The notes: generated from the letters alone by a model not told the origin. Numbered from the stretch's first letter, positions 15,118-52,132 are shown. The stretch: 64,000 bases of DNA from Nitrosopumilus piranensis (GCF_000875775.1 NZ_CP010868.1:1437707-1501706); one strand, 5' to 3'. Program-made: numbers and translations.

Positions 15118-15131
15118 TCTCCATTAACCCC

Positions 15132-17384: not shown

Positions 17385-17424
17385 ACTGTATGAAAATCAA
17401 TCCAAGTCATTGAAAAGTGCTTCT
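17385..17424 (-). promoter_or_regulatory. Shared leaderless promoter, copy 1
   Basis: Read on the minus strand, GAAGCACTTTTCAATGAC is followed by about 20 nt and the ATG at 17384. The block is nearly identical upstream of the genes starting at 20568, 49688 and 51872. Confidence 0.65.
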
Positions 17425-17540
17425 TATCAATAATCCCAAATTACACACAAAAAGTTAATGGTTTAACCCTAATTCAATAATTTAAGTTAACGTCAAAATC
17501 CCAAAAATACACTTTTAATTAAGGATTTCAAAATTCAATA

Positions 17541-18847: not shown

Positions 18848-18850
18848 TTT

Positions 18851-19861
18851 CTAATCTTCCATGACTATTACAGTACCAGTAATCCAAGGACCTGGCGTTC
18901 CATGATAATTGAAAATCCCCGTATTGTTAAATGTCACAGAAGACGATTCCCCAGGTTTTAGCAATCCAGTCCACCATGCATCATTTACATGATCGCTAAT
19001 TAGCGTATGTGTCACGTCGTCACGGTTAATCCACGTTACAGTGTTGTTGACTCCTAACACAACGGTAGTTGTTTCAGGATCCAAGGCTTTGTTCTCCGCT
19101 ATCACTGCACCTGGCAAAATAATTACAGTTGGGTTGGATTTGCCATATTCAGCAGTCCATACACCATATCTTATCCAATTTCTCTCAACCAGTTTCTGTT
19201 TGGTCGATTCTGTCACACATGCAGGAGATCCATCATATTTTAGAACTAAAACGTGTTCTGATTTACATAAAAAATTATTTTCATTCAAATCATACATCAT
19301 TGCACGACTATATTGAATTTTAAGCGGATATACAAAATCATAATATTCATAGTCTTGTTTTTCAAAATCAAAAGGATTCAAACAGTCAATTATTTGAGAA
19401 TTTTGAGAATCCCAAAAAGCAGTTGAATTTGCAAGAAAGGTGTTGAGTCCAGGCATGAGATCAAATTCTATAACCATATTGTCATCTTCTGTTTTAGTCG
19501 GGATTATTTTCTGGAAATTATTATCTTCTGGGAAATTAAGAGATGAAGAAGTTATGATGTAATATGTACTATTCTCATATCCGCCAGGCCAGTTCATGTC
19601 ATTTGGAAATTTATATTTTACATATCCTGATTCGGAAAAAGAATTTTTATCAAGGACAAAGTCTGATGTGAAATAGCACTTGCTATAGGAGTCTCCTGCT
19701 AATGCATCAGGTGGAGAATATTTGTATTGATAGAATTTTTCACCATAATGAAAATCGCTGAATCGTCCCGTATCAAAGCCGTCTTCTGAAAAACCCTGAG
19801 CGGCATTAAAAGATCCTGCAAAAATTATTACTCCAAAAATCATTGCCAGTTTAGTTTTCAT
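18851..19861 (-). CDS. Exported protein with two-Cys PLKQ-type domain and a degenerate plastocyanin domain
   Basis: The start is the M-K-T-K ATG at 19861 (its TGA/ATG overlap with the upstream gene fixes it), not the longer frame. Signal peptide about 1-24. About 220-252 carries L-V-L-K-Y-D-G-S-P-A-C-V...E-R-N-W. The last 95 residues are a type-I copper fold (V-T-W-I-N-R-D-D-V-T-H-T-L...G-I-F-N-Y-H). The first His is kept, but the usual C-x-x-H-x-x-M loop reads Y-H-G-T-P-G-P-W-I-T-G, so the Cys ligand is lost and canonical blue-copper function is doubtful. Confidence 0.75.
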   Translation of the reverse strand: MKTKLAMIFGVIIFAGSFNAAQGFSEDGFDTGRFSDFHYGEKFYQYKYSPPDALAGDSYSKCYFTSDFVLDKNSFSESGYVKYKFPNDMNWPGGYENSTYYIITSSSLNFPEDNNFQKIIPTKTEDDNMVIEFDLMPGLNTFLANSTAFWDSQNSQIIDCLNPFDFEKQDYEYYDFVYPLKIQYSRAMMYDLNENNFLCKSEHVLVLKYDGSPACVTESTKQKLVERNWIRYGVWTAEYGKSNPTVIILPGAVIAENKALDPETTTVVLGVNNTVTWINRDDVTHTLISDHVNDAWWTGLLKPGESSSVTFNNTGIFNYHGTPGPWITGTVIVMED

Positions 19862-20568
19862 CTTCTTTTTCTCCAAACTATGTAGATTATCAAAATTGTA
19901 ATTCCCAAGACAACGTATGGCCAAAAAATAACTAAAAACATGCCAAACATCATAGAAGGGCCGCCGTCATCTATTTTACAAGGAGTGAAACTTCCGTCAT
20001 CTTCCTGATACCAGCATTCGTTTGGATTGCCCGTGTTTTTAGAACCAACAGGGTTTGATTCTACATCGTTATTTTTCAAATTACATTCTGCATTGCCTTC
20101 ATTTTCATCACACAGTATCAAAAATTCTTTCCCATCCTCAGAATTGTCATAATGAAACCGGGTAATGTTTGACTTTTGATCAAGAAAGAGAATTTCGTTT
20201 TCTGCGTTAGACAAAAGTTTTGTGGGACCACAGTCATTTCCACTGGGATGTTTCTGGGTAGTATTCTCTGCAAAAAATAGATACGATTGCCCTTCTTTAA
20301 TTTCAACACCGCCGCTTGATACACCCCTACATGACAAAAAGGATATCTTGTCAAGTGTATCTCCTTTCCATTGCTCCATTGTCTTGACAGATATTTGTTT
20401 TACTCCTCCAGATGTGACATCCAGAACCGTCGCAGAAAAAATAAAATCAGAATCATCATATTCGTCCTGTAGAGTTCTACCGGAGATACATTGACATGCA
20501 AAGACAGGTTCTTGCAAGTATGTGGTAAAAAATGTTGAAAAAACAAGCAGAATTAGAAGATACTTCAT
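19858..20568 (-). CDS. Membrane-anchored TIMP/NTR-like OB-fold protein
   Basis: Start chosen at ATG 20568 (M-K-Y-L-L-I) because the shared promoter lies directly upstream; the open frame extends further but through that promoter. Signal peptide 1-24, then mature C-Q-C (25-27), the C-x-C hallmark of TIMP/netrin-like domains. The OB-fold pattern D-F-I-F-S-A-T-V-L-D-V...E-Q-W-K-G-D follows. A C-terminal helix with W-R-K-R-R tail anchors it. Family relatives inhibit metalloproteases or act as binding modules; the role here is unknown. First gene of the array. Confidence 0.75.
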   Translation of the reverse strand: MKYLLILLVFSTFFTTYLQEPVFACQCISGRTLQDEYDDSDFIFSATVLDVTSGGVKQISVKTMEQWKGDTLDKISFLSCRGVSSGGVEIKEGQSYLFFAENTTQKHPSGNDCGPTKLLSNAENEILFLDQKSNITRFHYDNSEDGKEFLILCDENEGNAECNLKNNDVESNPVGSKNTGNPNECWYQEDDGSFTPCKIDDGGPSMMFGMFLVIFWPYVVLGITILIIYIVWRKRR

Positions 20569-20608
20569 AATGTATGAAAACCAGTCCAAGTCATTGAAAA
20601 GTGCTTCT
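20569..20608 (-). promoter_or_regulatory. Shared leaderless promoter, copy 2
   Basis: GAAGCACTTTTCAATGACTT on the minus strand with the same spacing to ATG as copies at 17385, 49689 and 51873. It decides the start of the downstream gene. Confidence 0.65.
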
Positions 20609-20793
20609 GATGTTTTGCATCGGGGGATGTTCTTCACAAAAGGAGTGTCATTTTGCAGATGGGACCCATTATGAAACTAGTTGTTATCATAACTGTCGTA
20701 CTAAAAATTCAAGACTCACACCAACATATTCTCTAAACTGGAATCTGATTCTTACAATAACTTACAAATTCCCACCCATCTAAACGGCATAAC

Positions 20794-37267: not shown

Positions 37268-37285
37268 TCAGAGTCTAGTTTTCAT
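37268..37285 (-). other. Orphan MKTR leader remnant (M-K-T-R-L-stop)
   Basis: The conserved leader ATGAAAACTAGACTC is followed at once by TGA. The preceding gene stops inside it (GAA-AAC-TAG), exactly as at intact cassette junctions, but no ORF follows. It is read as a junction whose downstream gene was lost. Confidence 0.6.
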
Positions 37286-38393
37286 ATTCAAACACACAAC
37301 TTGCTCGTATAATTCCAGCACCACGACACACTTTAACTGTAAGAGGATCATCATCAATGATTCCAGTATCAATACACGGTGGTGTGATATCTTCTTGAAT
37401 TGTTATCCCTCCAATATCACGACAGACTTCCCACAAACCTTCACAATCATGACGAGTATAATTCCACATTCCTCCATTTGACTCACACTTTTCTACAAAA
37501 ATTTTGTCATCAAGCATTGCAGTAAAATTAAGTGGAGGTACACCAACATCAACTTCCTTGTATATTCGTGTAAGTTTAGAATTTTCAGGAGGCACATAGC
37601 CTGATCCTCCAGGATATACCGTCCAATCTTTGCGTGCATTTCCAAATACTATTTCTTCAAGAGAGGAACATTGAGTCAACACTCCATCATCAGAAGGAAT
37701 GCAGTAAAAATTGTCAGAGTAATACACTAGGGAGTTCCTAGTTGATGGTTGCCAAAGTTTTTCGGATTTACCATACTCGGTAGTCCACGATTCCACATTC
37801 ACATCAAAATCAACGGGCACACATTTTGTCCCATCCCAGTATTCTGTTAAGAAGCAATCCAGTTGTTCATCATCATTATTGAGAACATGATTTATGGGGG
37901 AATTCAATTGGTTCAATGTTGTTTGTTCTCCAGTTTGTGAGGTTGCCACATTATCATTTATGACAAACGAACCTTCAAAAAACGGATAATATCCTCCTCC
38001 CATAACAGCAGTTTCATCTTCATGATCCAAAATTACCAGGACTTTTTGCCCTGATTCATAATGAAAAACGGGTGTGCCAGATATTGAAACTCCTCTCAAG
38101 TCATCGATTGTCTTTGCCCAATATCCATAATATCGGATTTCCAATGTGTCTGAATTCTTGTTGTTTTTGAGCCAGTCATCCACTTTGATTTTTGCGGTGT
38201 CTACAATTGGGTGTTGATCAAATGGTCTCACATCAATCCAAGTGTTTTGTATGGTGCCAATTATAATTGCGTCAGATCTTTGAGCCATCTCTTCTAAAGA
38301 CACTATCATACGTGAAGCATCACTGTGTGGAATAAATGCAAACAACGACAAAAGTCCAACAAATGCAACAATTATCAAAATTCTAGTTTTCAT
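37275..38393 (-). CDS. Exported TIMP/NTR-like protein, MKTR family, 372 aa
   Basis: Leader M-K-T-R-I-L-I-I and signal peptide to about residue 26. Residues about 30-150 form the OB-fold pattern E-M-A-Q-R-S-D-A-I-I-I-G-T-I...K-V-D-D-W-L-K...G-Q-K-V-L-V-I-L. A shortened Cys segment (L-D-C-F-L...T-K-C-V-P) lies near 178-192, and the C-terminal 100 residues carry six cysteines. It ends E-Y-E-N, encoded by the leader of a now missing next gene. Unknown extracellular role. Confidence 0.7.
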   Translation of the reverse strand: MKTRILIIVAFVGLLSLFAFIPHSDASRMIVSLEEMAQRSDAIIIGTIQNTWIDVRPFDQHPIVDTAKIKVDDWLKNNKNSDTLEIRYYGYWAKTIDDLRGVSISGTPVFHYESGQKVLVILDHEDETAVMGGGYYPFFEGSFVINDNVATSQTGEQTTLNQLNSPINHVLNNDDEQLDCFLTEYWDGTKCVPVDFDVNVESWTTEYGKSEKLWQPSTRNSLVYYSDNFYCIPSDDGVLTQCSSLEEIVFGNARKDWTVYPGGSGYVPPENSKLTRIYKEVDVGVPPLNFTAMLDDKIFVEKCESNGGMWNYTRHDCEGLWEVCRDIGGITIQEDITPPCIDTGIIDDDPLTVKVCRGAGIIRASCVFEYEN

Positions 38394-38396
38394 TTT

Positions 38397-40118
38397 CTAA
38401 TCTAGTTTCTCTAATTGTGTAGAATCAAATAGCAGTATTTTTTCAGGTCGCTTTTTATTTTCTGGAATAAATTCTTGATGAACATCAGTGCAATCCACCT
38501 TACCTGTTGCAAGCCAAACCCGGAAAATTTTCTCCCTGTCCTGAACTGGTGCATCGCCCCACCTATCATAGACTGTAGGAGGGCCATGCCCTTCCACAAC
38601 CGGGCTTAAACCATCTTCTGCATGATATGCAACGTGAAAAGGCTTGTAGGGAAACTTGGACATTTCCTTTTCAAGACACGAATAAATTAATTTGTCAATT
38701 TCGTCTTCAGTGCTTACTATGGACTTGATTTCTCTTGGAGGATGATAATGTAAATACATTTGATTTTGTTCTTTATCAAAAGTAGTTCTCATGAAATAAT
38801 TAAAATCCAGACCATCAATTGTAAAAACAAATTCAATGTTTTGGCCAGAGGCTTTTGCAGGTGTGGTGTAAGGTCCGGAATTTGGTTTAGGTTCTACTAC
38901 GACATCAGGTTCATCTGAAACAATCGTTAGGTCAAAATGTTTTTCAAAGTATTCAGGGGAAATTTTTTCCAGGATTTTTTCCTTTATCTTTTCGGTTAGT
39001 TTCTCAACGAGAACATGTGACTCGGACTTTGTGGTACAGTAGTAATATGAATCATCATCTAGGAATTTTTCAGAGCAATAGTCTTCATTTGCATCATAGT
39101 TATTGACGTTTTGATAGAAAAACTCATGATCAAAGAAAGTGGCAACTGCATCTCTTAGTTTTACAGAATGTTTTTGGGCAGGAGCCATATCAGAATCAAC
39201 AAGATCATAAGCACCACGTTTTACATCTACATTTTTGAGAAACAACAATACCTCCTCTCCACGTTCAAAAGGAATGTTGAATCCGTTTCCACTATGAGTT
39301 GCTGTTTGTTCTAGAAACAATTGCTGGTCATCATATTTTCCTTGCTTTAGCCATTCATAGGAACCCAGCCAAACATGTCGCTCACCATTGAGTCGATTAT
39401 CTTCACCGACAACCATCCCAGTAATTATCGCATCTGAATTCTCAACTAGTTTGACAAGGAATTCATGAGGCATTCCCCATTGGCGTTGAGACAAAGATGA
39501 AACAGTATCAGATTTTACGCAAGCAGGGAAACCGTCGTATTTCGTAACAAGGATTAAAGATTCTTTGCATTGTATTTCGTTAATTGGGATTCCTGACTTG
39601 AATTGTTTCAGAGGGGACAAAAGTGGATAGGAGAAAGGGCGGTTATCTGAACCATTGCACGTGTTTTGTTGTGTGGATTCAGGATAGTTTGCGCCAATAA
39701 TTGTAATTGTTGATGCGTTTTTAGAGAAAGGAATTGTAAGAATTCTTAATCCTGCATCAGTTAATTCAGTAAAATGTGCTTCCTCTGAATTTTCCAGTAC
39801 AAAAAAGACATCATCATTACCAGTTGTAAATTTGGAATCAATCAGGTATCTTGAGAGACCTATGGTTAGAATGCCAGAGTCACCAGTAGTCTGTACAGTC
39901 AAAACAAGTTCAGAGGAATTACAATTAATTTTGATTTTCTCAATTGTTCCATCTGAAATTGAGTATGGAATATCATGCACATAGTCTCCTACAACCAGTG
40001 AATATATACTGAATTCTGGATTGGAGTAATAATTCGTATAGGAAGGCTCTAACGCAAATGCAGTTCCAGAAAATCCCAGTACCCCAATCGCAAGTATTGT
40101 AAAAAGCCTAGTTTTCAT
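38397..40118 (-). CDS. Three-domain exported protein (IPRxLID-like, PLKQ two-Cys, TIMP-like), 573 aa
   Basis: Signal peptide 1-22. Residues about 45-150 are the beta domain with I-G-L-S-R-Y-L-I-D-S-K...D-D-V-F-F-V. About 170-215 is the S-P-L-K-Q-F-K-S-G-I...I-Q-C...K-Y-D-G-F-P-A-C-V domain. About 218-330 is TIMP/NTR-like (V-E-N-S-D-A-I-I-T-G-M-V-V). The C-terminal 200 residues contain a separate alpha/beta region. Each domain also occurs alone or in other combinations in this array. Its leader overlaps the end of the upstream gene by 11 nt. Confidence 0.72.
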   Translation of the reverse strand: MKTRLFTILAIGVLGFSGTAFALEPSYTNYYSNPEFSIYSLVVGDYVHDIPYSISDGTIEKIKINCNSSELVLTVQTTGDSGILTIGLSRYLIDSKFTTGNDDVFFVLENSEEAHFTELTDAGLRILTIPFSKNASTITIIGANYPESTQQNTCNGSDNRPFSYPLLSPLKQFKSGIPINEIQCKESLILVTKYDGFPACVKSDTVSSLSQRQWGMPHEFLVKLVENSDAIITGMVVGEDNRLNGERHVWLGSYEWLKQGKYDDQQLFLEQTATHSGNGFNIPFERGEEVLLFLKNVDVKRGAYDLVDSDMAPAQKHSVKLRDAVATFFDHEFFYQNVNNYDANEDYCSEKFLDDDSYYYCTTKSESHVLVEKLTEKIKEKILEKISPEYFEKHFDLTIVSDEPDVVVEPKPNSGPYTTPAKASGQNIEFVFTIDGLDFNYFMRTTFDKEQNQMYLHYHPPREIKSIVSTEDEIDKLIYSCLEKEMSKFPYKPFHVAYHAEDGLSPVVEGHGPPTVYDRWGDAPVQDREKIFRVWLATGKVDCTDVHQEFIPENKKRPEKILLFDSTQLEKLD

Positions 40119-40488
40119 TTTCTAATCCTCCAAGTTCATGAGATCCAAACAATTTTACAGATGCAATAGTTTGACCATAGTTTACAATTACTTTATTCCC
40201 ATCAATTGATATCCGCTCATCATCTACATTATCTCCATTAATGTGAATCATAAATACACCATCAATCAGATCTGTGGGAATGGCAATTTCAACATAGTCA
40301 GTATGTCCATTCACTACAAAATATTCAACAGCATACTCTTCCTCATGAAACACCATGTCAAGATCATATGGAATGTCATCTGACGTGTCATAGTCAATCA
40401 CAGAATTAAAAAAAGCGTTGATGTATGCAGATGAGACAATCAATGCAATTGGAATTGTGATGATTAGAATTTTGTATCTAGTTTTCAT
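40108..40488 (-). CDS. Exported single-domain IPRxLID-type protein, 126 aa
   Basis: Leader M-K-T-R-Y-K-I-L-I-I, then one beta domain with V-E-I-A-I-P-T-D-L-I-D-G-V...D-D-E-R-I-S-I-D-G-N-K-V, the free form of a domain fused in 38397 and 44873. The C-terminus E-N-E-N-stop is encoded by the next gene's ATGAAAACTAG junction, an 11-nt overlap. Confidence 0.65.
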   Translation of the reverse strand: MKTRYKILIITIPIALIVSSAYINAFFNSVIDYDTSDDIPYDLDMVFHEEEYAVEYFVVNGHTDYVEIAIPTDLIDGVFMIHINGDNVDDERISIDGNKVIVNYGQTIASVKLFGSHELGGLENEN

Positions 40489-40493
40489 TTTCT

Positions 40494-41597
40494 CTATTCA
40501 ACGACCTTAATTTTTTCAAAATCCGTTAAGATATACCCTGAATTGTAAATAACTGCATCACACCAATTCATGTCTCTTATTGTAGGAACAAATAGTCCAG
40601 TTATTTCCACTTGGTTGTTTTTTAACTCAATTGGAAGTCTTTCTGATTTAGAAATGCCAATGTTATCTGCACTTCCAATTCTCACTCCCAAATGTTTGTC
40701 ACCTTTATCATCATACAATTGCTGACTGCTGATAAATTCTGCAACAAAATCATCACTTGTTGTAAACTTTGCATTATCACAACCAACCCCAGTACGTACC
40801 ATTACATCAGCATCATGTTCACGCAATTCACCTTTAATGGCAATCACTTGGTTGTAGTACTGATCTGGATTCGCATGTATCTCATCAATGGATGCTTGTA
40901 ATACCCCATCTCCTCGAAGTCCAGTTGGAATTATAGAATACAATACATAAATCTCATCTACAGTGATTATTTCCTCTCCTTTTTTTGATATGCTTCCAAA
41001 CAGTTTGACGTATTTTCCATCAAGGTTGTCTCCATGATCAATTCCCTCCAGTTGTATCCCTGATGAGCCAGTGCTGATTTTTGATATTTCATTTGTAAAA
41101 AATCGGTATTCATGTGATTCTTTTTCGAGTCGTTGATCTATTATTACTCCTTCAAATTCTTGTGTAACTCCATATGTCAATTTTTCTTCTGATTCAGACT
41201 CGTCTTGAAGCTCAATTTTACTATTGTAAAAAACGATTGGTATGTCATCAGGGTATTGAGATATAATTTTCTCAATTTCTGAATTGAACTGCTCAGTTTC
41301 AACAATCACGATGATTTTCTTTGTTGCATGATCAAGGTTTACCGCATAAGCAGTCAAAGGGCTTTTTTGATGCAATTGGCTGACTTTGTTTCTAAGATCT
41401 TGCTCTGCTGCAACTAGCACTGCTTTTCTTTCAGGCTCTATGTAGTATTTGCTACCTGGTTTTGGAGATGTGTTAATGTCAGACGAGGTATCTGTAGAAA
41501 AGCCATAATAGACATTATACCAATCCAGTACAGAGTATGTGACAAACGGGATTGTTATTATCAAGATTACAGTGATTATCAAAAACCTAGTTTTCAT
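40494..41597 (-). CDS. Exported/membrane-anchored protein with OB-like domains, 367 aa
   Basis: Leader M-K-T-R-F-L-I-I-T with one membrane anchor. About 55-130 is a small alpha/beta domain, and about 150-230 an OB-like barrel (Y-V-K-L-F-G-S-I-S-K-K-G-E-E-I-I-T-V-D). About 240-365 is a second OB-like domain (P-D-Q-Y-Y-N-Q-V-I-A-I-K-G-E-L-R) with two cysteines, C~273 and C~346, that may pair. The function is unknown. Confidence 0.62.
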   Translation of the reverse strand: MKTRFLIITVILIITIPFVTYSVLDWYNVYYGFSTDTSSDINTSPKPGSKYYIEPERKAVLVAAEQDLRNKVSQLHQKSPLTAYAVNLDHATKKIIVIVETEQFNSEIEKIISQYPDDIPIVFYNSKIELQDESESEEKLTYGVTQEFEGVIIDQRLEKESHEYRFFTNEISKISTGSSGIQLEGIDHGDNLDGKYVKLFGSISKKGEEIITVDEIYVLYSIIPTGLRGDGVLQASIDEIHANPDQYYNQVIAIKGELREHDADVMVRTGVGCDNAKFTTSDDFVAEFISSQQLYDDKGDKHLGVRIGSADNIGISKSERLPIELKNNQVEITGLFVPTIRDMNWCDAVIYNSGYILTDFEKIKVVE

Positions 41598-41645
41598 TTT
41601 CTATAATTTCCATTTATCAAGCAAGATATCCCAATCATGTTCACA

Positions 41646-44126
41646 TCAATTAGACAATCTAAAATCTATCTCAGTAAAGTACGCATAGTCTGCCTTGTCT
41701 TTTGGTTGCTCTAGTATACACAGACTAGTTTCAATGTTACTATCAATAGCAATCTCTGGAAGATGGACTAGAGTTGGGAATAACGATAAAAATTCCACAT
41801 GATAATTTCCCTGAGCGTCTGGAAGAATGCCAAAATCTTTTTCGGTCATGTATACTGTGTCAATTTCAGGCAGTATGGGAATTGTTGGAGATATGCCATT
41901 TGTTATGTCAATTCGCCTATCATCGCAAATTGCAATATATGTAATTCCAATTGCAATGACTCCATAATTATCCCTGTCAATGACTGAATCATCCCATGCA
42001 TCATTACCGTTCTCATCTACAAAAATCCATTCACCAGAGCCTCTAGGGAGGTTATCCCAAATGACTCCTCGGGTATCACCGTTTCTGTTTGCTATGGAGA
42101 AACGATCCCATACAGCTTCGCCGTTAACGTTGGTGTCCACATCAGTTATTGTAACAGGCAACAGATTACGTTTGTTAATTGGGTTTTCTATTGTTAGAAT
42201 TGTAGGATATTCCACAGCGTCATTTTCAATGGCACTTTGGATTTCTGAATCTACAAACTTGTCTTCAAGGATATCCCATTTGTTATCAAGTATAGCTCTG
42301 TGAATGGTGTTGATGTTTTGCACTGACAAAGTGATTGTGTATTTGTAAATTCCATTTTCAGATATTTGTGCATCAGGATATAATTGCTTGTCAGATTCAA
42401 ATGTTCCTAAAACACCAACATGTGGGGGAAGCGTATCTCGCTGTCCGTAATATTTTAGATCAAGGTTTTGTATATTACTTTGTGATGATGATTCTACAAA
42501 ATGCTTGCTAGTCATAATTGCAAATGTTGTAAAAGAATTCTCATCAAGATAACCTCGTTTTTGCAATGGTAAGATATGTTCAGACAAAATGCATACAGGT
42601 TTGCCGTCAGATTTTTTTAGCATCAATACATGTCTGTTCTCAATATTTATCGTGCATTCTATGTTATTTTTTGAGACTCCGCTTACAAGTTGTTTTAGTG
42701 GAGGTTCTATGGTAGGTATTTTACCAAGACATTCTTTGTCAGTTTCAATTTTTGCCAAATCAATCAAATCACTAAATTTTTTTCCATCATCTGAGCTGTA
42801 ATGGTACAAAATGCAATTAGATGTATAATCTGCATCAATAACAATGTGCACAAACCCATTGTCTACATCCATGATTGTATTGCTTGGCCTCATAGGATAG
42901 TCTTGTAAGATGTCAGTTATTTCTGAATAATTTCCGTTATTGTCTTTTATGTTAAAGTACAATGCATAGTTTTCATATGGATAATTTTTCACTCCAGGTG
43001 CAAAATAATATTGCTTTCCATCATCAACTAGCGTTATCACTCTGCCGTATTGTCTTACAAAACTGCTAGCGGGAATTTCCTCCATTTTGAAATCTTTACC
43101 TTTGTTGATGCTTGTGCCAACAAAAGTCAGGATTGTTTGATTTTCACCATCCCAATAGTCAGACTCCCACAATACATTCAGTGTTCCATCAATTACAAAA
43201 ATTCCTAATCTCTCAGGATGATAGGTGTCAATAGAGTCTGGATCAGATGGTAGGTATTTTGATTTCTCAAATGTTTTGCCTCCGTCATGGCTTGCTGCAA
43301 AGCTAGAGTACCACCTAGTATCATTTGGTCTGTCTAGCCAAGTTACATAGACATCGTCTCCAGAAACTGCAATCTTTTGATTGGTGACTGACGTCTCTGC
43401 ATTATTTACGCTTATTTTATCAGTGACAGTGCCGTCAGGTAGAATCTTGACGAGATACAAGTGACCTTTTTTGTCATAATCTTTTTCATCATCCATAAGA
43501 AGATAGATCACACCATCACTGGCAAAAGTTACAATGTCTTGGCGCACTTTGCCTTGATTTAGAATTTTGGATGGCTCTGAGAAAGAATTTCCAAAATCAT
43601 CGCTAACTGAATAAAACGCATAACTGGTATTTTCCCCCCTAGTCCACATCGTGCCAAAAACATATAATTTTTCATTTAGAAATTCAACGTTACTTATATC
43701 ATAATACACATCATCCGTAGTTAGAATTAATTTTGGTTTTGAGAATGTTTTGCCATCATCATTACTAGTCAACACATAAAATTGAGGTACAACATCTCCA
43801 TTTCGTGTAAATAGTTCGTAAAAAACAAAGATGTTTTGCTCTTGTGAGAGGATCTGGGAGTTGCCAATAAATGATCCAGTCGTAATAATCTTAGGTTCCA
43901 ATATTGTTTTGCCATCAACTAATTGCGTAAAGATAATTGTTGAATCACTATCTTGATTATATGATTCCCAGATTATGTTGGCTTTGTTATTTTGAATTGA
44001 AATCAATGGGTTTGAATAATGGGTTTCTTGTTTGTCTTCATGGGACCCAAATACAAAGTGACCTTGATCATAGTGACTTGTAATACCAATCATGCCAATT
44101 AGAAATAGAACGAAAAATATTTTCAT
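41646..44126 (-). CDS. Exported sialidase-like beta-propeller protein with PLKQ two-Cys domain, 826 aa
   Basis: Signal peptide 1-17. Residues about 30-470 contain several Asp-box motifs of the S/D-x-D-x-G-x-x-F type (N-D-D-G-K-T-F, D-D-F-G-N-S-F, H-D-G-G-K-T-F, S-D-D-G-K-K-F), the mark of sialidase/BNR six-bladed propellers. The two-Cys domain (P-P-L-K-Q-L...I-E-C...P-V-C-I) follows near 475-530. The last 280 residues are unassigned with D-E-N-G-N-D-A-W-D-D. No sialidase Arg triad is evident, so carbohydrate or protein binding is more likely than catalysis. It heads the array at its own TATA box. Confidence 0.75.
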   Translation of the reverse strand: MKIFFVLFLIGMIGITSHYDQGHFVFGSHEDKQETHYSNPLISIQNNKANIIWESYNQDSDSTIIFTQLVDGKTILEPKIITTGSFIGNSQILSQEQNIFVFYELFTRNGDVVPQFYVLTSNDDGKTFSKPKLILTTDDVYYDISNVEFLNEKLYVFGTMWTRGENTSYAFYSVSDDFGNSFSEPSKILNQGKVRQDIVTFASDGVIYLLMDDEKDYDKKGHLYLVKILPDGTVTDKISVNNAETSVTNQKIAVSGDDVYVTWLDRPNDTRWYSSFAASHDGGKTFEKSKYLPSDPDSIDTYHPERLGIFVIDGTLNVLWESDYWDGENQTILTFVGTSINKGKDFKMEEIPASSFVRQYGRVITLVDDGKQYYFAPGVKNYPYENYALYFNIKDNNGNYSEITDILQDYPMRPSNTIMDVDNGFVHIVIDADYTSNCILYHYSSDDGKKFSDLIDLAKIETDKECLGKIPTIEPPLKQLVSGVSKNNIECTINIENRHVLMLKKSDGKPVCILSEHILPLQKRGYLDENSFTTFAIMTSKHFVESSSQSNIQNLDLKYYGQRDTLPPHVGVLGTFESDKQLYPDAQISENGIYKYTITLSVQNINTIHRAILDNKWDILEDKFVDSEIQSAIENDAVEYPTILTIENPINKRNLLPVTITDVDTNVNGEAVWDRFSIANRNGDTRGVIWDNLPRGSGEWIFVDENGNDAWDDSVIDRDNYGVIAIGITYIAICDDRRIDITNGISPTIPILPEIDTVYMTEKDFGILPDAQGNYHVEFLSLFPTLVHLPEIAIDSNIETSLCILEQPKDKADYAYFTEIDFRLSN

Positions 44127-44152
44127 GATATTACAGACAGAATGATAGGAAG

Positions 44153-44170
44153 CTCATAAAGTGTTCTAAT
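44153..44170 (-). promoter_or_regulatory. TATA-type promoter ATTAGAACACTTTATGAG
   Basis: On the minus strand, about 27-44 nt upstream of ATG 44126. The ATTAGAACACTTTATGA core recurs on the plus strand at 52271. Confidence 0.6.
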
Positions 44171-44225
44171 CTTTTGGGAATAGATGATGTGAGGTAAACG
44201 GTCTGGGAATTAGCCTCAAACATAT

Positions 44226-44354
44226 CTATTGTGATTTGAATATTCCAATTACAATAAAAGCAACACGAACGAATCGTTCATACAAATTCTCAGTATTCCC
44301 TAAATACCAAATTGACAAACACAATGCAGAAACTGTCACCAGACAACTAATCAT
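44226..44354 (-). CDS. Small membrane protein, 42 aa
   Basis: Two short hydrophobic helices (V-T-V-S-A-L-C-L-S-I-W and V-R-V-A-F-I-V-I-G-I-F) with a charged turn (N-T-E-N-L-Y-E-R). The codons remain open upstream to 44399. Function unknown. Confidence 0.4.
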   Translation of the reverse strand: MISCLVTVSALCLSIWYLGNTENLYERFVRVAFIVIGIFKSQ

Positions 44355-44503
44355 TGTTGGTCTTAAGTTTCGATTTTGATTATCTTGTTTAATTCCTTTT
44401 AAAGGGATTTACAGTTTTAGTTTAACACCCTGTTCATTATTTTTAATAAAATATGTGCAAATCTGTCAAGATTTGAACCATTGGAATCTGTATGGCCTTA
44501 TCA

Positions 44504-44521
44504 TTAGAATACTTTATGAAC
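44504..44521 (+). promoter_or_regulatory. TATA-type promoter ATTAGAATACTTTATGAA
   Basis: Plus-strand copy of the common promoter block, upstream of the zinc-finger gene at 44577. A 35-nt leader or a later start would follow. Confidence 0.45.
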
Positions 44522-44576
44522 ACTACATCTGCTAGATTTATTAAATGAATTTCACAGTTTATCATATTCTATAATT

Positions 44577-44795
44577 GTGTATTTGCCAAAACAGTTACAA
44601 TCTACAACAAGAATTCTAAACATAGTGGCAACCCCAAAAGATTGCAAGTTCTGTGGAAAAACAATTAGACCTGATGAATTGTTTTCATTGTACATAAAAC
44701 ACATCAACAAAAAGAAGGAAGAGTCTTGGTTTCATGAAGAATGTTATGCTGAACTGATGAAGGAGATGGGAGAAGATTCCCCATTTGACCGGTAA
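44577..44795 (+). CDS. Small zinc-finger protein, 72 aa
   Basis: D-C-K-F-C-G-K-T-I-R-P-D-E-L-F...S-W-F-H-E-E-C-Y is a C-x-x-C...H-x-x-C treble-clef-like finger (LIM/PARP-type spacing). GTG start at 44577; a GTG 45 nt later is possible. Cytoplasmic, function unknown. Confidence 0.6.
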   Translation: MYLPKQLQSTTRILNIVATPKDCKFCGKTIRPDELFSLYIKHINKKKEESWFHEECYAELMKEMGEDSPFDR

Positions 44796-44872
44796 CAAAA
44801 TGCTATAACTGATTATACCACATATACTGTAATGAAGACAAAACGAAATTCAGAAATATTTGCATTTTCTAA

Positions 44873-45595
44873 TTAAATCCAAAATGTTCTAATTATCTCA
44901 ATGTCTTGAGTATTTTTTGAAAACCACACTGTAATTATTCTTGAGTCATCTGTTTTTTTCTCACCATACATATGCTCTAGTCCATCAATTAATAGAAAAT
45001 ACACATCATCAACTTCACTGTTTCCGATTTTTGCATCTATCAGATCACGTGGAATTGATATTACCAGATATCCGCCTACAGATTCACTTAATGAAACATG
45101 AACAGAGTTGGCATCAGCATCATGTACAATACTTTCTAGTGTTGCGCCCTTGAGGGAATACAAAACTTCAAAATCAGTGTTGTTTTTTGTAACAGAATAC
45201 GCTATAGGGTTTGCAAGCTCAACTGTTTTGTCAGTGGTAGCCCAGCCACGCATTACCAGTTTTTCAACAGATTCCGGTTTGATACATTTTGGATATGCAT
45301 GAGGCATCTTTCCAACCAGCTCAAGGCCATCTCTGCACTGTATATCTTGGAATCTTACTCCCATTTCATGTTGTTTTAAAGGAGATAAGATGGTTGGAAT
45401 TCGATTTTTTTCAAGTTTAACACATAATTCTCCATAATATGGTTCACACCAATCCATAAACTCTTCAAATGTTTTTTCTTTCATGTCTGGAGGCAATATG
45501 ATTGAATGCTCAAGAAGTTGGTTTGGATCATGTTCTGCAAATGCAACACCCACAAATCCAATCATTCCAATAATTATCAAAAATCTAGTTTTCAT
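44873..45595 (-). CDS. Exported two-domain protein (PLKQ two-Cys plus IPRxLID), MKTR family
   Basis: Start set at the M-K-T-R ATG 45595; an ATG 12 nt upstream is possible. Signal peptide 1-20. Residues about 65-115: S-P-L-K-Q-H-E-M-G-V...I-Q-C...Y-P-K-C-I...R-G-W. Residues about 130-240: beta domain V-I-S-I-P-R-D-L-I-D-A-K...D-D-V-Y-F-L-L. Same domain pair as in 38397 but reversed in order. Last gene of its sub-array. Confidence 0.72.
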   Translation of the reverse strand: MKTRFLIIIGMIGFVGVAFAEHDPNQLLEHSIILPPDMKEKTFEEFMDWCEPYYGELCVKLEKNRIPTILSPLKQHEMGVRFQDIQCRDGLELVGKMPHAYPKCIKPESVEKLVMRGWATTDKTVELANPIAYSVTKNNTDFEVLYSLKGATLESIVHDADANSVHVSLSESVGGYLVISIPRDLIDAKIGNSEVDDVYFLLIDGLEHMYGEKKTDDSRIITVWFSKNTQDIEIIRTFWI

Positions 45596-45599
45596 TTTT

Positions 45600-45845
45600 T
45601 CAGACATATTTTCTCCACAACCTGATTGCCAAATAAACTCCTAGTGCTATAAGCAATAACGGAATCCAATGAAAAATCAATACAAACAAAACAGACATGA
45701 AATCATAAGTAAGTGTATTTCCACCAAAAGTATCATGGATTGAAAAGGAGTAATAGTTTAGAAGATTTACAAAGCTTTCCGGTATGAATGTGGGCAATAT
45801 AGGAATGCAAACTATGCCAATTTTCAGAAAAGTTTTAGTTTTCAT
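45600..45845 (-). CDS. Two-TM membrane protein, MKTK leader, 81 aa
   Basis: M-K-T-K-T-F-L-K-I-G leads the first helix. A second long helix (S-V-L-F-V-L-I-F-H-W-I-P-L-L-L-I-A-L-G-V) ends in R-L-W-R-K-Y. ATGA overlap with the upstream gene fixes the start at 45845. Confidence 0.62.
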   Translation of the reverse strand: MKTKTFLKIGIVCIPILPTFIPESFVNLLNYYSFSIHDTFGGNTLTYDFMSVLFVLIFHWIPLLLIALGVYLAIRLWRKYV

Positions 45846-46345
45846 TTTCTTTTTTTCCATCTAATTATTACAATAATAGAACCAACAATCATTCCTAAGA
45901 CAACATAATAAAACAGATTATAATCAAATGGATTTAGTAATCCCAATCCCAAAAATCCAATTGGTTTAGTATCACACATCCCGTTGTTATAATGAACATT
46001 ATCATGGACAAATACAGTGTATGTAATACCAATTTGATATCCAACATCACATGAACTATGCTTACTTGTGGTATACTCATCTGAAAAACTTAGTCCTAGA
46101 TTTTCTAAGACAAATATGTTATCCTTGATATCTCCCTTGAATATTTGAGTAACATAAAAAGTGACTTTTTGTGGACCGCCACTATTGTCAATATCAGTAA
46201 CAGTTCCAATAAACGCATATTCAGACTCTTGTAATGCTGCAAGAAAATCTGTAGGAGCAGAACAACTACAAGCATAAGAATTCTGTAAAAATAATGGCAA
46301 AATGAGAATCATCAGTATTGTAAATATCGATACTCTAGTCTTCAT
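45842..46345 (-). CDS. Membrane-anchored TIMP/NTR-like protein, 167 aa
   Basis: MKTR-type leader, cleavage before C-S-C (26-28), the TIMP hallmark. OB-fold strands E-Y-A-F-I-G-T-V-T-D-I...T-Q-I-F-K-G-D-I and later cysteines (about 89 and 114) follow. A C-terminal helix with R-W-K-K-R-K anchors the protein. Classical TIMPs inhibit metalloproteases through the N-terminal Cys; whether that holds here is unknown. Overlaps both neighbours by 4 nt. Confidence 0.75.
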   Translation of the reverse strand: MKTRVSIFTILMILILPLFLQNSYACSCSAPTDFLAALQESEYAFIGTVTDIDNSGGPQKVTFYVTQIFKGDIKDNIFVLENLGLSFSDEYTTSKHSSCDVGYQIGITYTVFVHDNVHYNNGMCDTKPIGFLGLGLLNPFDYNLFYYVVLGMIVGSIIVIIRWKKRK

Positions 46346-47394
46346 TTTCTCTTTCTCCTAATCACAAATATGCTACCAACCATACTGCCAACGATTGCGA
46401 TAGTGAGTAAAACTACCACATAGACTAGTCCATAATCATAATCACGTATAGGCTCCAAATTTGGAGGAGGTAAATTTTCATAAAATGGCTCTCCCCATTT
46501 TACACCAGTATCACCATATTCGTTTTCAGAGATTACTAGACAAATTCCGTCTTGCAGTACAGTTCTAGGGCCACATTCTTCATAGACAGTTCTATCTTGT
46601 TCTGGTTCAGGAATCGGTTCAGGTGAAGGACCATCGTGCTCCCATCTTGCAGGAGATTCCTCATACAACAAAACAAAGGGTACATCACCTATCAGTTCTT
46701 GGACTTTGTTTCCAATGGTCAAATCAGGTGTCCATAAAACAAGAATGTCTCTTTTGTAATCTATTGCAATTGATGCAATTGGTAACTCAGTATGATCTAA
46801 TCCATGACTATACAAGCCATCCATGGCAACATCTAGTTCTGTATCAGTTAGGTTTGATGGTTGTGCAGGGATTACAATCGAACCATCACCAAGTACATCT
46901 CTGTAAGATTCTCTCTCGTTTGCATCTTGGTATTGTCGTAAAGGTTTCTCATATTCTTCTGAATAATAATTTCCGTCCTCAGGTCCAGGTTCCCAAATGT
47001 AACCATCAGGAGGTGTAGTAATATTTGTGGTGCATTGGCTTGTCTGTCCGTTTATTACGTATACCTTGTAGGTTTTTCCAATTTTGTAATCCACGTCTGT
47101 TGACAAACTCATAATTGCGTCGTTTTCAAGAAACACCATTCCAGTATTTTCAAAAACATGTTTTGGTGTATTGACATCTCCTTTAACCACATCATGAATC
47201 AAGAACGTAACTTTTTGCGGTCCGTCATAGTTATCAAGACGTGTGACAGTCCCAGTAAATACCAATTCAGAGTCAGATTCTACTGAATCATAATTAACTT
47301 CTGCAGCACAAAGTGCAAATACTTGCTCATCCCATGATGGCTGTAAAAATACTGTAATTACAAAAAGTGCAATTATCAATATTCTAGTTTTCAT
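46342..47394 (-). CDS. Membrane-anchored TIMP/NTR-like protein, 350 aa
   Basis: MKTR leader and signal peptide to about 27. OB-fold region 30-145 with S-E-L-V-F-T-G-T-V-T-R-L...H-D-V-V-K-G-D-V, closely parallel to the 45842 product (both have D-N-x-x-G-P-Q-K-V-T-F). Then an extracellular linker, a Cys-containing segment near 275-290 (E-E-C-G-P...G-I-C-L-V), and a C-terminal anchor with R-R-K-R-K tail. 11-nt overlap with the upstream gene. Confidence 0.72.
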   Translation of the reverse strand: MKTRILIIALFVITVFLQPSWDEQVFALCAAEVNYDSVESDSELVFTGTVTRLDNYDGPQKVTFLIHDVVKGDVNTPKHVFENTGMVFLENDAIMSLSTDVDYKIGKTYKVYVINGQTSQCTTNITTPPDGYIWEPGPEDGNYYSEEYEKPLRQYQDANERESYRDVLGDGSIVIPAQPSNLTDTELDVAMDGLYSHGLDHTELPIASIAIDYKRDILVLWTPDLTIGNKVQELIGDVPFVLLYEESPARWEHDGPSPEPIPEPEQDRTVYEECGPRTVLQDGICLVISENEYGDTGVKWGEPFYENLPPPNLEPIRDYDYGLVYVVVLLTIAIVGSMVGSIFVIRRKRK

Positions 47395-47986
47395 TTAATC
47401 CCTCACAACCATGTGCTGTCTCAGTACCGATAAAATAATCAGAATACCCTTCATGATACACAATCTCGTAGTTGACAGATGAGGGAATCTGTGAAATTAT
47501 CTTTTTTTCAGGGTCAGAACCTTCAAAGAACTTGTGCAAATCAAGAATTATTTTGTTGTCTTGTAGTCGAACATCACAAATATCATATTGAGTTTTTTCT
47601 ATATTGAATTTAATTTCTTCAAACTGTAATTCAGATAACAGTGTTGGTTCTTTAGGACAAAATTGTGGACATCCTTTAGAGTTTGATGGGTCATATTCAG
47701 GATCTAAATCAATTGGAGGATCCTCTGTCTCTTTGTAACATACTGAGTAAAAATTGTAATGAATCATATCTAGTTGTTTTATTGGATCTGTGTAATACAC
47801 AGCAAAGAATATTTGATTTGCAACAAAATCATCAGGAATTGGAAAATAAGGGCAAAAGACTTTTGATATTACTGCAAACTGAGGAGTGTCGGTATTTGCA
47901 TACACATAGTCAATTGTTATAATTGATGAGACAGGAATTCCAATAATTAATAAAATAATTATTGTGATTTTGTATCTAGTATTCAT
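47384..47986 (-). CDS. Exported protein, MKTR-type leader, 200 aa
   Basis: Leader M-N-T-R-Y-K-I-T-I-I-I and signal/anchor to about 30. Extracellular alpha/beta domain with six or more cysteines (F-C-P-Y, V-C-Y-K, G-C-P-Q-F-C-P, I-C-D-V, G-C-E-G). It ends L-N-E-N-stop inside the leader of the next gene, as 40108 does. Family unknown. Confidence 0.62.
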   Translation of the reverse strand: MNTRYKITIIILLIIGIPVSSIITIDYVYANTDTPQFAVISKVFCPYFPIPDDFVANQIFFAVYYTDPIKQLDMIHYNFYSVCYKETEDPPIDLDPEYDPSNSKGCPQFCPKEPTLLSELQFEEIKFNIEKTQYDICDVRLQDNKIILDLHKFFEGSDPEKKIISQIPSSVNYEIVYHEGYSDYFIGTETAHGCEGLNEN

Positions 47987-48822
47987 TTTCTATTTCTCCA
48001 AAATGTAACAACTCCAACAAGGGTAATGAAAAAGCCCATGATTCCACCAAACAAAAATGCATGACGATACATGACAAAAACAAAATTAATGCCTTCAATT
48101 GGTCGCATGACAGGTGGATCTACAGGAGGAAGTAAAAATAATGACAAATACAAAGTCACAAACAGTCCTTGAACCATTAACGCTATGCCAGAAATTATCA
48201 AAAATTTGCTTTTCATGATTTTGCCTTGAATTATCAGTATTGTTATTATCAAAGAAGGAATTATCACTAAAAAGAAAACAAATTCAATGTGTACATTAAC
48301 AGTACTACCAAATGTTGTTTCTTCCATTCCTTCTGCAGTGCCAGTCCATGCACCAATACCGTCTCCAGTATCCCATACATGTGGACTTGCTAATGTACCA
48401 GTCAAAATTGCAAGAATTATCAACAAAGCAGAATATGCCAAAATCATAGTAATTACAGATATTATCAAAGACTTGTTAGAGGTTTGAAAGATCATCTTTT
48501 TTTGAATCATAAAAGATGCAAATCCTGCAACCACACCAACAGTAATTGCAGACATTGGACCCAGAGTTTGACTAAACGGAAGTATCAAAGATGTTGCCGT
48601 AATGATACTCAAAGGGATCCCTGCAACTCGGATATTTTTTGATGCCCATGAGAACAAAATCCAAGATGTGAGGGAAAAAACAACAGTCAATGTCATAACC
48701 ACAACACTGCTAACTGTCAAACCATCCATCATCACTTCGTTATTTATACCAAAATCCAGTCCCCTAATCCAAGGAATCAGTACAAGAAACACTGCAATAA
48801 TTATCAAAAGTCTAGTTTTCAT
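47983..48822 (-). CDS. Polytopic membrane protein (about seven TM), MKTR family
   Basis: Start at M-K-T-R ATG 48822 (ATGA overlap). Seven hydrophobic helices with little soluble sequence, including V-V-V-M-T-L-T-V-V-F-S-L and I-I-P-S-L-I-I-T-I-L-I. The C-terminal tail is W-R-N-R-K. No transporter signature. Confidence 0.65.
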   Translation of the reverse strand: MKTRLLIIIAVFLVLIPWIRGLDFGINNEVMMDGLTVSSVVVMTLTVVFSLTSWILFSWASKNIRVAGIPLSIITATSLILPFSQTLGPMSAITVGVVAGFASFMIQKKMIFQTSNKSLIISVITMILAYSALLIILAILTGTLASPHVWDTGDGIGAWTGTAEGMEETTFGSTVNVHIEFVFFLVIIPSLIITILIIQGKIMKSKFLIISGIALMVQGLFVTLYLSLFLLPPVDPPVMRPIEGINFVFVMYRHAFLFGGIMGFFITLVGVVTFWRNRK

Positions 48823-49688
48823 TTTCTCCAAATCTCATAATTTTCAGTATGTTTGTATTGCAATCCATCAAATGTCCAAAAGTATGAAAAACGCTTTGCC
48901 CATCCCTTTTGTTCAATTTTGTCTGCAGTGTCAGAAGTAACGCAAAAAGGAGAGCCAACATACAAGCGATACATTGGCTCCATTCCTAACGGACATGCAA
49001 TCAGGTCATACACTGCAGGAGAAATTTCTTTATCCATTTCAAAATACTGGAATGCTCTTTGTTCTTTTAATGGCGGTATCTTTACGTCTCCAGGATAAAT
49101 ATCGGGGACATAATCTTCCAGATTCCACTCCCAAATAGAGCCTTGAATTTTTTCGACCAAGTACACATCAGATACTTTGCAATTTGTTCCAAAAGAAAAC
49201 TCGTCATAATGTTTCAGATAAAGAAGCAGTTTTTCTCCTATTTCTGGCGTAAACTTGTATCCATATGACATTGGTTCTGCATAATGCCTGTCAGAGATTA
49301 TTTCCATACCGATTATTCGTATGATGTCACCTGCATCGTGGTTTTTGTAGATTTTTTCTACTTCAAACTCATAAAGAAATGGAGTTTTGGCAGTACTGTT
49401 GTTTAGAAAATCTACGATTCCTTGGTTTGGTTGCGCGTACTGTAATCCAAGTCCACATGGGTTTGAAGGGTTGTTTTTGTCATATCCAATCATGGCATCT
49501 GTACTGCTGTGTTTCTGTATTGGGATTCCCAATACGATAATGTCTGATCTAAATGCCATCTCAGCTGAGATTGGCGAGGCTATGGGAGAGCCACATGGAT
49601 AACCCATTAAACATCTGGCATCGGCATCTGAAACAAGATATGAAGCTATCATAAAAACAACAATTAGAAAAATTGTAAAATATTTCAT
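48819..49688 (-). CDS. Exported TIMP-like protein with C-terminal two-Cys segment, 289 aa
   Basis: Signal peptide M-K-Y-F-T-I-F...D-A-R. OB-like region about 40-190: E-M-A-F-R-S-D-I-I-V-L-G-I-P...F-E-V-E-K-I-Y-K...G-E-K-L-L-L-Y-L. Near 205-265 a P-P-L-K-E...A-C-P-L...G-S-P-F-C-V-T...K-G-W segment matches the PLKQ domain. Uses the shared promoter at 49689. Confidence 0.7.
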   Translation of the reverse strand: MKYFTIFLIVVFMIASYLVSDADARCLMGYPCGSPIASPISAEMAFRSDIIVLGIPIQKHSSTDAMIGYDKNNPSNPCGLGLQYAQPNQGIVDFLNNSTAKTPFLYEFEVEKIYKNHDAGDIIRIIGMEIISDRHYAEPMSYGYKFTPEIGEKLLLYLKHYDEFSFGTNCKVSDVYLVEKIQGSIWEWNLEDYVPDIYPGDVKIPPLKEQRAFQYFEMDKEISPAVYDLIACPLGMEPMYRLYVGSPFCVTSDTADKIEQKGWAKRFSYFWTFDGLQYKHTENYEIWRK

Positions 49689-49728
49689 ATCTAATGAAAC
49701 ATTATTGTGTCATTGAAAAGTGCTTCTG
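49689..49728 (-). promoter_or_regulatory. Shared leaderless promoter, copy 3
   Basis: GAAGCACTTTTCAATGAC on the minus strand; identical core and spacing to copies 1, 2 and 4. Confidence 0.65.
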
Positions 49729-49779
49729 ATGTTTTGTGTTTAGATTTTCGCTTAGTTTTCCATATTAGACATTACGGCA

Positions 49780-50132: not shown

Positions 50133-50699
50133 TTACTTTCTTTTTTTCCAAAAATAATAGACAATACCAAGTGCAATAATACACCCAATGCCAAGCGGAA
50201 TTAACTCATATGCAATATTTGTAAATACAATCGGTTTGACAATTGGATCTCCTTCAACGACTACCGTTTGACCCAAACCATAATGTGGCCCTATCTGGGA
50301 TATGTTAAACTGGGAATGTATGTGATACGTTCCAGGTTCAAGTGCTTTTACAGTTATAGAGTATTTCACAAAAGAGTTGCCGGCAACGTCAAAAACTGTT
50401 TTGGGAGGATCTCTTGCCATTATTTCCCATCTGCTGGAATTGCCATGGGATTCAGAGAAAATAGAAATCCATCCTTTGAGATCCTTATCCACATTACTTT
50501 TTATGATACCTGTAACAGTCAAAGTTTCACCAGTCTGCATGCGATGTTTATCAAATGTTTCATCTTCAATTCTAACAAAACTAGTAGCAGGATACATAAT
50601 GTCATGTGCATCTGCACTTGGAATTACAACAAACACGCTAGATAACAGGAAAAAAATACCAAAAGAAAGTATAATGATTTGTAATGATACAAACTTCAT
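50133..50699 (-). CDS. Exported Ig-like protein with C-terminal anchor, 188 aa
   Basis: Signal peptide to about 31 (S-A-D-A). One beta-sandwich domain (about 45-145: Q-T-G-E-T-L-T-V-T-G-I-I...L-E-P-G-T-Y-H-I-H-S-Q-F) is followed by a membrane helix and W-K-K-R-K. The G-T-Y-H-I-H pattern resembles archaeal methane/ammonia monooxygenase-B-like or CARDB-type beta sandwiches, but the family is not certain. Confidence 0.65.
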   Translation of the reverse strand: MKFVSLQIIILSFGIFFLLSSVFVVIPSADAHDIMYPATSFVRIEDETFDKHRMQTGETLTVTGIIKSNVDKDLKGWISIFSESHGNSSRWEIMARDPPKTVFDVAGNSFVKYSITVKALEPGTYHIHSQFNISQIGPHYGLGQTVVVEGDPIVKPIVFTNIAYELIPLGIGCIIALGIVYYFWKKRK

Positions 50700-51212: not shown

Positions 51213-51872
51213 TTACTTTCCAAATATCCATGAAATCAAATTGTCAATGTATACAAAAATTCCAAAAAATGAGGCATCATCTCCCACTACATCTGTTTTT
51301 TCCATTCCTATAATTTGGCAAACACCGTCAACTAGTTCTGTTCCAGTACCGCACATTGACGCATCATCGTTATTCTCAGGAATGAATCTTTTCCAACTGC
51401 AACTATGTACATCATATATCAAATCAGCATGGTTTGCAGGCAAGTAATATTTGCATTCAGTTGGGATATAGTGAGATGCAGCATAGTCAATTAGATAGCT
51501 ATAGGAAGACTCTAAGTCATCAGAAATGTGTACATAAAATACAAGCTTGTCACCAATTTTGTACAAATTTGGAGTGTAAGACATCCCATGAGGCTTTTCA
51601 AGATATTCACCATGTGCAGAGATGACCTTATTCTCAAAGGAGTTTTTTATAAAATCGTGAACCTTTAGGGAATATACTACCTTGCCAGGCGTCTCGCTGT
51701 AATGGTTTTTGTCATGAGTCTGAATGGATTCAGATAGCACTTTTGCAGATAAAACCTCTCCATAGAAAACATAGTCTGCTCGCTCATAAGATCTCTCATG
51801 ATCTAACTCAGGTACGGCAAAAACAGTTCCAACAAATCCAACTAAAACAAAAAAAACTACAAGATACTTCAT
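51213..51872 (-). CDS. Exported TIMP-like protein, 219 aa
   Basis: Signal peptide 1-18. OB-like domain about 25-140: Y-E-R-A-D-Y-V-F-Y-G-E-V-L-S...L-K-V-H-D-F-I-K...G-D-K-L-V-F-Y-V. Cysteines near 142 and 159, and a second pair (M-C-G-T...V-C-Q-I) near 178-190. Uses the shared promoter at 51873. Followed by a broken leader. Confidence 0.7.
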   Translation of the reverse strand: MKYLVVFFVLVGFVGTVFAVPELDHERSYERADYVFYGEVLSAKVLSESIQTHDKNHYSETPGKVVYSLKVHDFIKNSFENKVISAHGEYLEKPHGMSYTPNLYKIGDKLVFYVHISDDLESSYSYLIDYAASHYIPTECKYYLPANHADLIYDVHSCSWKRFIPENNDDASMCGTGTELVDGVCQIIGMEKTDVVGDDASFFGIFVYIDNLISWIFGK

Positions 51873-51912
51873 AATGTATGAAAATCAACCCCAGTCATTG
51901 AAAAGTGCTTCT
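51873..51912 (-). promoter_or_regulatory. Shared leaderless promoter, copy 4
   Basis: ATTAGAAGCACTTTTCAATG on the minus strand, with the same GATTTTCATACA-ATG end as copies 1 and 2. Confidence 0.65.
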
Positions 51913-52132
51913 AATATTTTGTTCAAATCCAAATAGATTTGGTCAGTGGATTGTTGAGGGTTTAAATGGATTTTGTAAATTTTTTTCTGTTTTTGTTATT
52001 TCTGTAATACTAAATGAATCTCTAGTTAGTTGTGCAAGATAAATGTAGACGATGTTACTTTTTCATCAGTGTCATAATTGGATTTCATATGTTCCTGTTG
52101 GCCAATTCTTTTTTGTTTGCCATTTAGTTAAC

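Follow-up and report, generated by a model that had tools for sequence, protein, structure and literature searches.

How do genes with unrelated bodies come to start with nearly the same DNA, and what has joined them? The question is raised by the window analysed here (64,000 nt from the genome of Nitrosopumilus piranensis, a single contig of 1.71 Mb), in which a core sequence, AAAATGAAAACTAGA, or a near copy of it opens 14 genes on the minus strand, grouped in one array at 14.2-19.9 kb and another at 37.3-48.8 kb. One additional stub, with the core but without a body, brings the copies in the two arrays to 15. An earlier note on this DNA had spoken of at least a dozen consecutive genes with nearly the same start DNA; the 14 genes and the orphan bear out the number, but they do not form an unbroken series, since the genes at 17384, 44126 and 49688 start differently. 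The common DNA, referred to here as the leader, spans about -6 to +20 (approximately 27 nt; TAGAAAATGAAAACTAGACTTTTGATA). With up to three mismatches, the 15-mer is matched 29 times in the window, where 12.2 matches would be expected and none of 100 shuffles reaches 29, and the matches with 0-2 mismatches lie nearly all on gene starts of both arrays. Genome-wide, 13 exact copies of the 15-mer are found, and none in the reversed control; sites of the form ATG-AAR-ACN-MG number 47 in all, more than half of them being ATGAAAACTAG.

The organization of the 37-49 kb array is best followed in its direction of reading (its features, and the other cores, the head modules and the 91-nt patch described below, lie on the minus strand). 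Gene 48819-49688 ends in the ATGA of an exact leader core (48811-48825), which opens a cassette for a multi-TM, distantly ammonium-transporter-like protein (47983-48822). The WRNRK* end of this cassette lies inside the next core (47975-47989), of the MNTRYKI subtype and overlapping the upstream gene by 4 nt, and the cassette that follows (47384-47986) has its NEN* end inside the leader after it, with an 11-nt overlap. The core at 47383-47397 belongs to gene 46342-47394, for an exported protein that is a paralogue (47% identity) of its neighbor 45842-46345; the latter (core at 46334-46348), with a weak NTR-like match, encodes an exported protein with a C-terminal TM and an RWKKRK* tail. A MKTK-type core (45834-45848) opens the gene for a small TM protein (45600-45845), and an exact core (45584-45598) that for an exported protein with a recurring CVKPE-type motif domain (44873-45595). 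After a non-leader gene with BNR repeats and a MKIFF start (41646-44126), the series resumes with the core at 41586-41600 and an exported or anchored protein (40494-41597), followed by an exact core of the MKTRYKI subtype (40477-40491; gene 40108-40488). Gene 38397-40118 (core at 40107-40121) encodes a recurring PACV-type domain and ends with a D-stop 3 nt ahead of the next ATG, and the final cassette (37275-38393; exact core at 38382-38396) has its EYEN* end in an orphan leader (37274-37288). This orphan, at 37285, reads ATG AAA ACT AGA CTC TGA (MKTRL*) and is followed by no body, and the TAG inside it is the stop of the last array gene. In the 14-20 kb array, cores are located at 19850-19864 (MKTK; gene 18851-19861, cupredoxin-like with a PACV-type motif), 18836-18850 (MKTK; gene 18347-18847), 15106-15120 (gene 14839-15117) and 14831-14845 (gene 14252-14842).

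The leader not only opens genes but also ends them. A 19-mer, GATTAGAAAATGAAAACTA, was said to occur at the junctions at 18.85, 38.4 and 40.1 kb and to be read in a different upstream frame at the last of these; both observations are correct, as exact copies lie at 18838 (enclosing the MKTK core at 18836-18850), 38384 and 40109, with the upstream frame GAT-TAG (D-stop) at the first two and TTA-GAA-AAT-GAA-AAC-TAG (L-E-N-E-N-stop, an 11-nt overlap at the end of gene 40108-40488) at the third. The three ways of ending the upstream gene are real and general: in the 157 leader genes for which the upstream gene is clear, that gene stops with a TGA at +1 in 53 cases, a TAG at +8 in 37 and a TAG at -6 in 14, and all three upstream frames are used (65, 60 and 32 genes). 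As upstream genes use stops of the leader, the leader writes the last codons of the proteins encoded before it. Upstream proteins are therefore predicted to finish often with RK*, as seen for the TGA at +1, or with NEN*, the tail seen for the TAG at +8, for which 34/50 have NEN as their last triplet. The 11-nt ATGAAAACTAG overlap occurs in 37/157 leader genes vs. 11/437 other genes. The 4-nt ATGA overlap is common elsewhere in these genomes (92/437 other genes) and in this respect resembles ordinary operon coupling, from which the leader arrays differ in the 11-nt overlap and in the 27 nt of DNA common to unrelated bodies. The overlaps would fit translational coupling.

The similarity of the leaders might be thought to reside in their amino acids, a reading that the earlier note had set against its own. 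In a test set of 100 leader genes, picked by protein sequence only and with one gene per body family, the synonymous sites are non-random: Thr3 is ACT in 82/90 (background.50), Leu6 is TTG in 69/88 (background.26), Ile7 is ATA in 66/78 (background.31) and Leu5 is CTN in 65/65 (background.46). These counts rule out an exclusively amino-acid-driven similarity, and protein constraint alone is insufficient as an explanation. The codon excess declines from codon 8 onward and AGAAA immediately precedes the ATG in 42% of leader genes vs. 15% of other hydrophobic-start genes, which together point to a DNA-level element of approximately -6 to +20. Variation within the leader is highest at third codon positions, so that protein and nucleotide constraints are jointly at work. 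Concerted evolution inside genomes was rejected, since leaders of one genome are no more alike than leaders of different genomes; nucleotide-level selection must then contribute or dominate. Selection on translation start or export probably helps to keep the leader uniform, whether it recombines or not.

The leader is lineage-specific. Among 84,980 species searched, a 23-nt version of the leader, two of its positions left free, was found in 37 stretches, 35 of which come from records under the labels Nitrosopumilus, Nitrosarchaeum or Thaumarchaeota and the remaining two on one and the same contig, labelled Planctomycetaceae. At up to three mismatches it is present in 43 of 95 genus genomes, with 0-74 copies each, and the reversed controls for the 95 genomes gave three matches altogether. 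Viral spread was discarded, as on viral contigs the pattern is confined to a single phage gene, which has 16 codons and is unrelated.

What follows the leader is highly diverse. The bodies had been described as unrelated, which holds for most, but some are paralogous or mosaic: besides many unrelated families there is a mosaic group in which short domains recur in varying order. Approximately 100 non-redundant bodies are found among 168 leader genes, many of them without a match to any other body. The surroundings of a given body vary as well. Between species, represented by one genome each, the same leader body had homologous neighbors in just 2/88 comparisons, vs. 34/35 for genes far from leaders, so that gene order is not fixed. 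Non-leader genes near leaders had homologous neighbors in 26/132, suggesting that whole islands are unstable. In alignments of pairs with 76-95% protein identity, the DNA 5' of the leader is typically unrelated, identity begins at ATGAAAACTAGA and runs through the gene into the next leader, and the DNA beyond is again unrelated. Mean identity over 39 pairs rises from.24-.30 (-60 to -13) through.36 (-12 to -7) and.67 (-6 to -1) to.94 at the ATG, i.e., from random upstream of about -7 to high from the ATG on, but as any two leaders are partly alike (core differences between random leaders are.118), the 3' part of this profile does not independently demonstrate crossing-over within the core. Neither of the two findings by which the earlier note would have been refuted, a similarity driven by amino acids only and a fixed gene order, was made; between species, neighbor homology is lost and identity breaks at the leader.

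The spacing at the junctions indicates to which gene the closing frame belongs. When an upstream gene was followed by non-homologous genes, the exact spacing was preserved in 23/45 cases (8.1 expected), whereas for a leader body with different upstream genes it was preserved in 7/60 (9.9 expected); the closing frame goes with the upstream gene, and a leader can follow any frame. The change of spacing for the other 22/45 followers shows that joining is not always precise. Core sites leading into fewer than 45 codons (stubs) make up 61/259; some of these are chance matches, and many end an upstream gene. A recent transfer between two genomes (G065 and G094), whose leader cassettes are 95-97% identical and first looked special compared with neighboring genes, is not claimed, as their amt-like genes, read by eye, are nearly identical too.

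A second class of leader, absent from the earlier note, is located at operon heads and consists of a promoter, a conserved 5'UTR and a MKY start. In the window, such head modules are found at 17376-17428 (conserved 5'UTR element and TTTTCATACAGTATGAAGTAT start of gene 15132-17384), at 20560-20612 (operon starting near 20568), at 49686-49731 (divergent near the ATG; gene 48819-49688, the head of the 37-49 kb array) and at 51864-51916 (gene 51213-51872). The same body can have a MKTR leader in one species and a head-type promoter and MKY start in another, as exemplified by L091 vs. the window gene at 51872 and by L078 vs. that at 17384. Pairing between the 5'UTR element of the heads and the leaders at the RNA level was also considered, but dropped: 2.9-5.4% of shuffles were as good in duplex energy, and leader genes paired no better with the head element than other genes did.

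The break of identity at the leader, the loss of neighbors and the synonymous conservation support the proposal of the earlier note that genes were joined at the DNA level at a short common junction. We consider it probable that these loci are gene-cassette arrays with the start-codon leader as the exchange point, for which short-homology recombination is the likeliest process, with selection aiding uniformity; the recombination step itself we infer from between-species patterns. The exchange unit would be a single gene, whose product is exported or anchored in the membrane, and the junction would be the gene's own translation-start leader of about 27 nt, carrying the start context, the start codon, the charged end of the signal sequence and stops in three frames (TAG at -6, TGA at +1, TAG at +8). 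A gene joined to this leader in any frame would be terminated immediately, and overlap would provide the start of the following one. As the leader closes the preceding and opens the following gene, whole genes could be exchanged without breakage of the reading frame. With direct copies at every gene start, recombination could remove, add or swap entire genes, such that genes may be gained, lost and reordered by homologous or short-homology recombination between leaders (RadA-type or template-switch), while selection on initiation and export would keep the leader uniform.

A different explanation needs no exchange at the leader. The leader could be a nucleotide-level signal for initiation or re-initiation (and export) maintained by selection only, with unrelated processes rearranging the islands and boundaries falling at leaders as genes are the functional units. 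The equal likeness of leaders within and between genomes is in line with this, as are the SD-like GG.G at -13 to -10 in the profile together with the AGAAA before the ATG, a synonymous conservation that exceeds that of the bodies, and the frequency of ATGA overlaps in other genes. However, other exported genes of the same loci start differently, which argues that the leader signal is not generally needed. Moreover, exact spacing to unrelated followers is kept above chance, whole 5' ends are swapped before the same body, and orphan leaders persist without a usable body. Taken together, we regard an explanation by selection only as unlikely.

Still less probable, in our view, is that a tyrosine-type site-specific recombinase uses the leader as its site, comparable to Mycoplasma vsa/vpma or integrons. 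Read by eye, the leader resembles a weak inverted repeat of 11-6-11 form (GAAAATGAAAA-CTAGAC-TTTTGATAATT), and many of the leader-bearing genomes have tyrosine recombinases, with a weak correlation to the leader count (rho.43), although both track genome size. Nevertheless, G022, a 99% complete genome on a single contig, gave no match to PF00589 but carries 14 leaders, while another genome (G070) contains 18 integrases but lacks leaders; an integrase seemingly is not needed. Over nine leader-bearing genomes the integron integrase model TIGR02249 reached 39 bits at best (23 bits in the window's own genome), below the curated cut-off of 265, and no serine resolvase was found in these nine; neither was a recombinase among 20 proteins of the window's arrays and their neighbors. 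The peak of variation at third codon positions is also unexpected for a protein-DNA site. That the leader genes are an ordinary paralogous family, descended by duplication from one gene for an exported protein, with bodies no longer recognizable as related but the signal sequence kept, is hardly credible, for although some bodies are paralogous (46342 and 45842 in the window; the PACV-domain group), the non-redundant bodies include cupredoxin-like and multi-TM transporter-like proteins, signal sequences as a rule change faster than the bodies behind them, and the same body is found with unrelated 5' ends.

Short-tract exchange has one example in the window, in the first leader cassette of the 37-49 kb array. 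Within 47983-48822, a patch of 91 nt (48322-48412) is identical to a 527-aa amt-like gene of the same genome (G000:C1 from 303096), which, from its sequence, we take to be an ammonium transporter. The flanks of the patch have 20-35% identity, and in two other genomes (G095 and G003) the orthologous cassettes agree with the patch at 47-48/91 positions only. Judged from these alignments, short-tract gene conversion is evident at this one site in the genome. Together with the apparent dispensability of an integrase, it makes a RadA-type or template-switch process the best candidate for the engine of the arrays.

Several known systems share features with the leader arrays. Integrons and CALINs have been described in archaea (Ghaly et al., 2022; PMC9668308). 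Like these, leader arrays are long, same-strand and made of mostly promoterless accessory genes in one orientation, with content and order varying by species, and the genes appear to be interchangeable when species are compared. In contrast to integrons, they are without IntI above the cut-off and leave no room for attC, as judged by gene spacing (neighbors overlap by 4 or 11 nt or are few nt apart), and the junction is not a folded 3' site but a coding one at the 5' start codon. In the vsa, vsp and vpma loci of Mycoplasma, a conserved 5' leader with start and signal sequence is the exchange point before different surface-protein bodies, and a dedicated recombinase inverts DNA, switching one expressed gene. 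The leader arrays would likewise exchange at a conserved 5' leader, as suggested by the differences between species, but they are unidirectional, overlap as if co-transcribed and have mostly non-homologous bodies, and no recombinase was found among the 20 array and neighbor proteins of the window, nor is one clearly tied to leader number. The SVM secreted-protein genes of Phytoplasma, with a conserved signal peptide, variable mosaic bodies and unstable regions, are similar in placing a constant signal start before variable exported bodies; compared by description only, we know of no overlapping arrays or three-frame stop junction among them.

A search of the open-access literature found no earlier description of leader arrays. 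Whether they form a previously undescribed archaeal cassette system is, to us, an evenly balanced matter; in such a system the leader of about 27 nt would be recombination junction, ribosome start, signal-sequence start and three-frame terminator in one, such that every gene coming in would be closed and every gene leading out started and exported, supporting a modular, fast-changing and integrase-free exported repertoire across Nitrosopumilus. Among marine nitrifiers, Nitrosopumilus and related archaea hold a major place, and a large part of their variable genes encodes unknown exported proteins. A common junction would explain how these islands diversify, and the variety of exported proteins may have an adaptive role. 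The leader model offers a testable route to modular gene arrays without an integrase, and the 27-nt leader a simple DNA tag for finding and counting such genes in any metagenome.

The only hits of Rfam and tRNA scans of the window were a tRNA at 4.1 kb and another at 63.7 kb, both outside the arrays. Pfam searches with 20 window proteins gave few matches above cut-off, including BNR_2 in the non-leader gene 41646-44126 and Monooxygenase_B in 50133-50699.

Operon heads in the window carry a second conserved module besides the leader core (the shared MKTR-type start-codon DNA of the cassette genes), with the arrangement (ACTAG)ATACAAAA-CATCAGAAGCACTTTTCAATGA-...-TTTCATACAGTATGAAGTAT. This head module, comprising a promoter, a conserved 5'UTR and an MKY start, is located on the minus strand at 17376-17428, 20560-20612, 49686-49731 and 51864-51916. 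A near-palindrome encloses its start codon and, in relatives, a TATA-like TTTTATAAAAAATATTC is often present upstream. Among the genus genomes, clear copies number 6-8 per genome in N. piranensis (G000), G094, G095 and G118, and are fewer in G003, G064, G065 and G015. At position 11161 of L075, a leader-bearing stretch, a head module is directly fused to the leader core (ATGAAAACTAGATACAAAACATCAGAAGC), as if head modules, too, were joined there.

Within the body of one cassette, 91 nt (48322-48412, minus) are identical to the genome's own 527-aa ammonium-transporter-like gene, which lies outside the window; orthologous cassettes lack this patch. It represents a recent short-tract gene conversion.

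A stretch of ~50 aa, roughly L..GI....I.C...L.LV.KYDG.PACV...T...L..RGW and without a Pfam match, recurs at varying positions in otherwise different exported proteins, encoded on the minus strand at 15132-17384, 18851-19861, 38397-40118, 41646-44126 and 44873-45595. A short exported protein (50133-50699, minus) matches Monooxygenase_B (AmoB/PmoB) above the Pfam cut-off over ~40 residues.

Two leader matches of thaumarchaeal style (L042 and L055) fall on JAJDEI010000150.1, a low-GC contig labeled Planctomycetaceae that is probably a misbinned thaumarchaeal contig.
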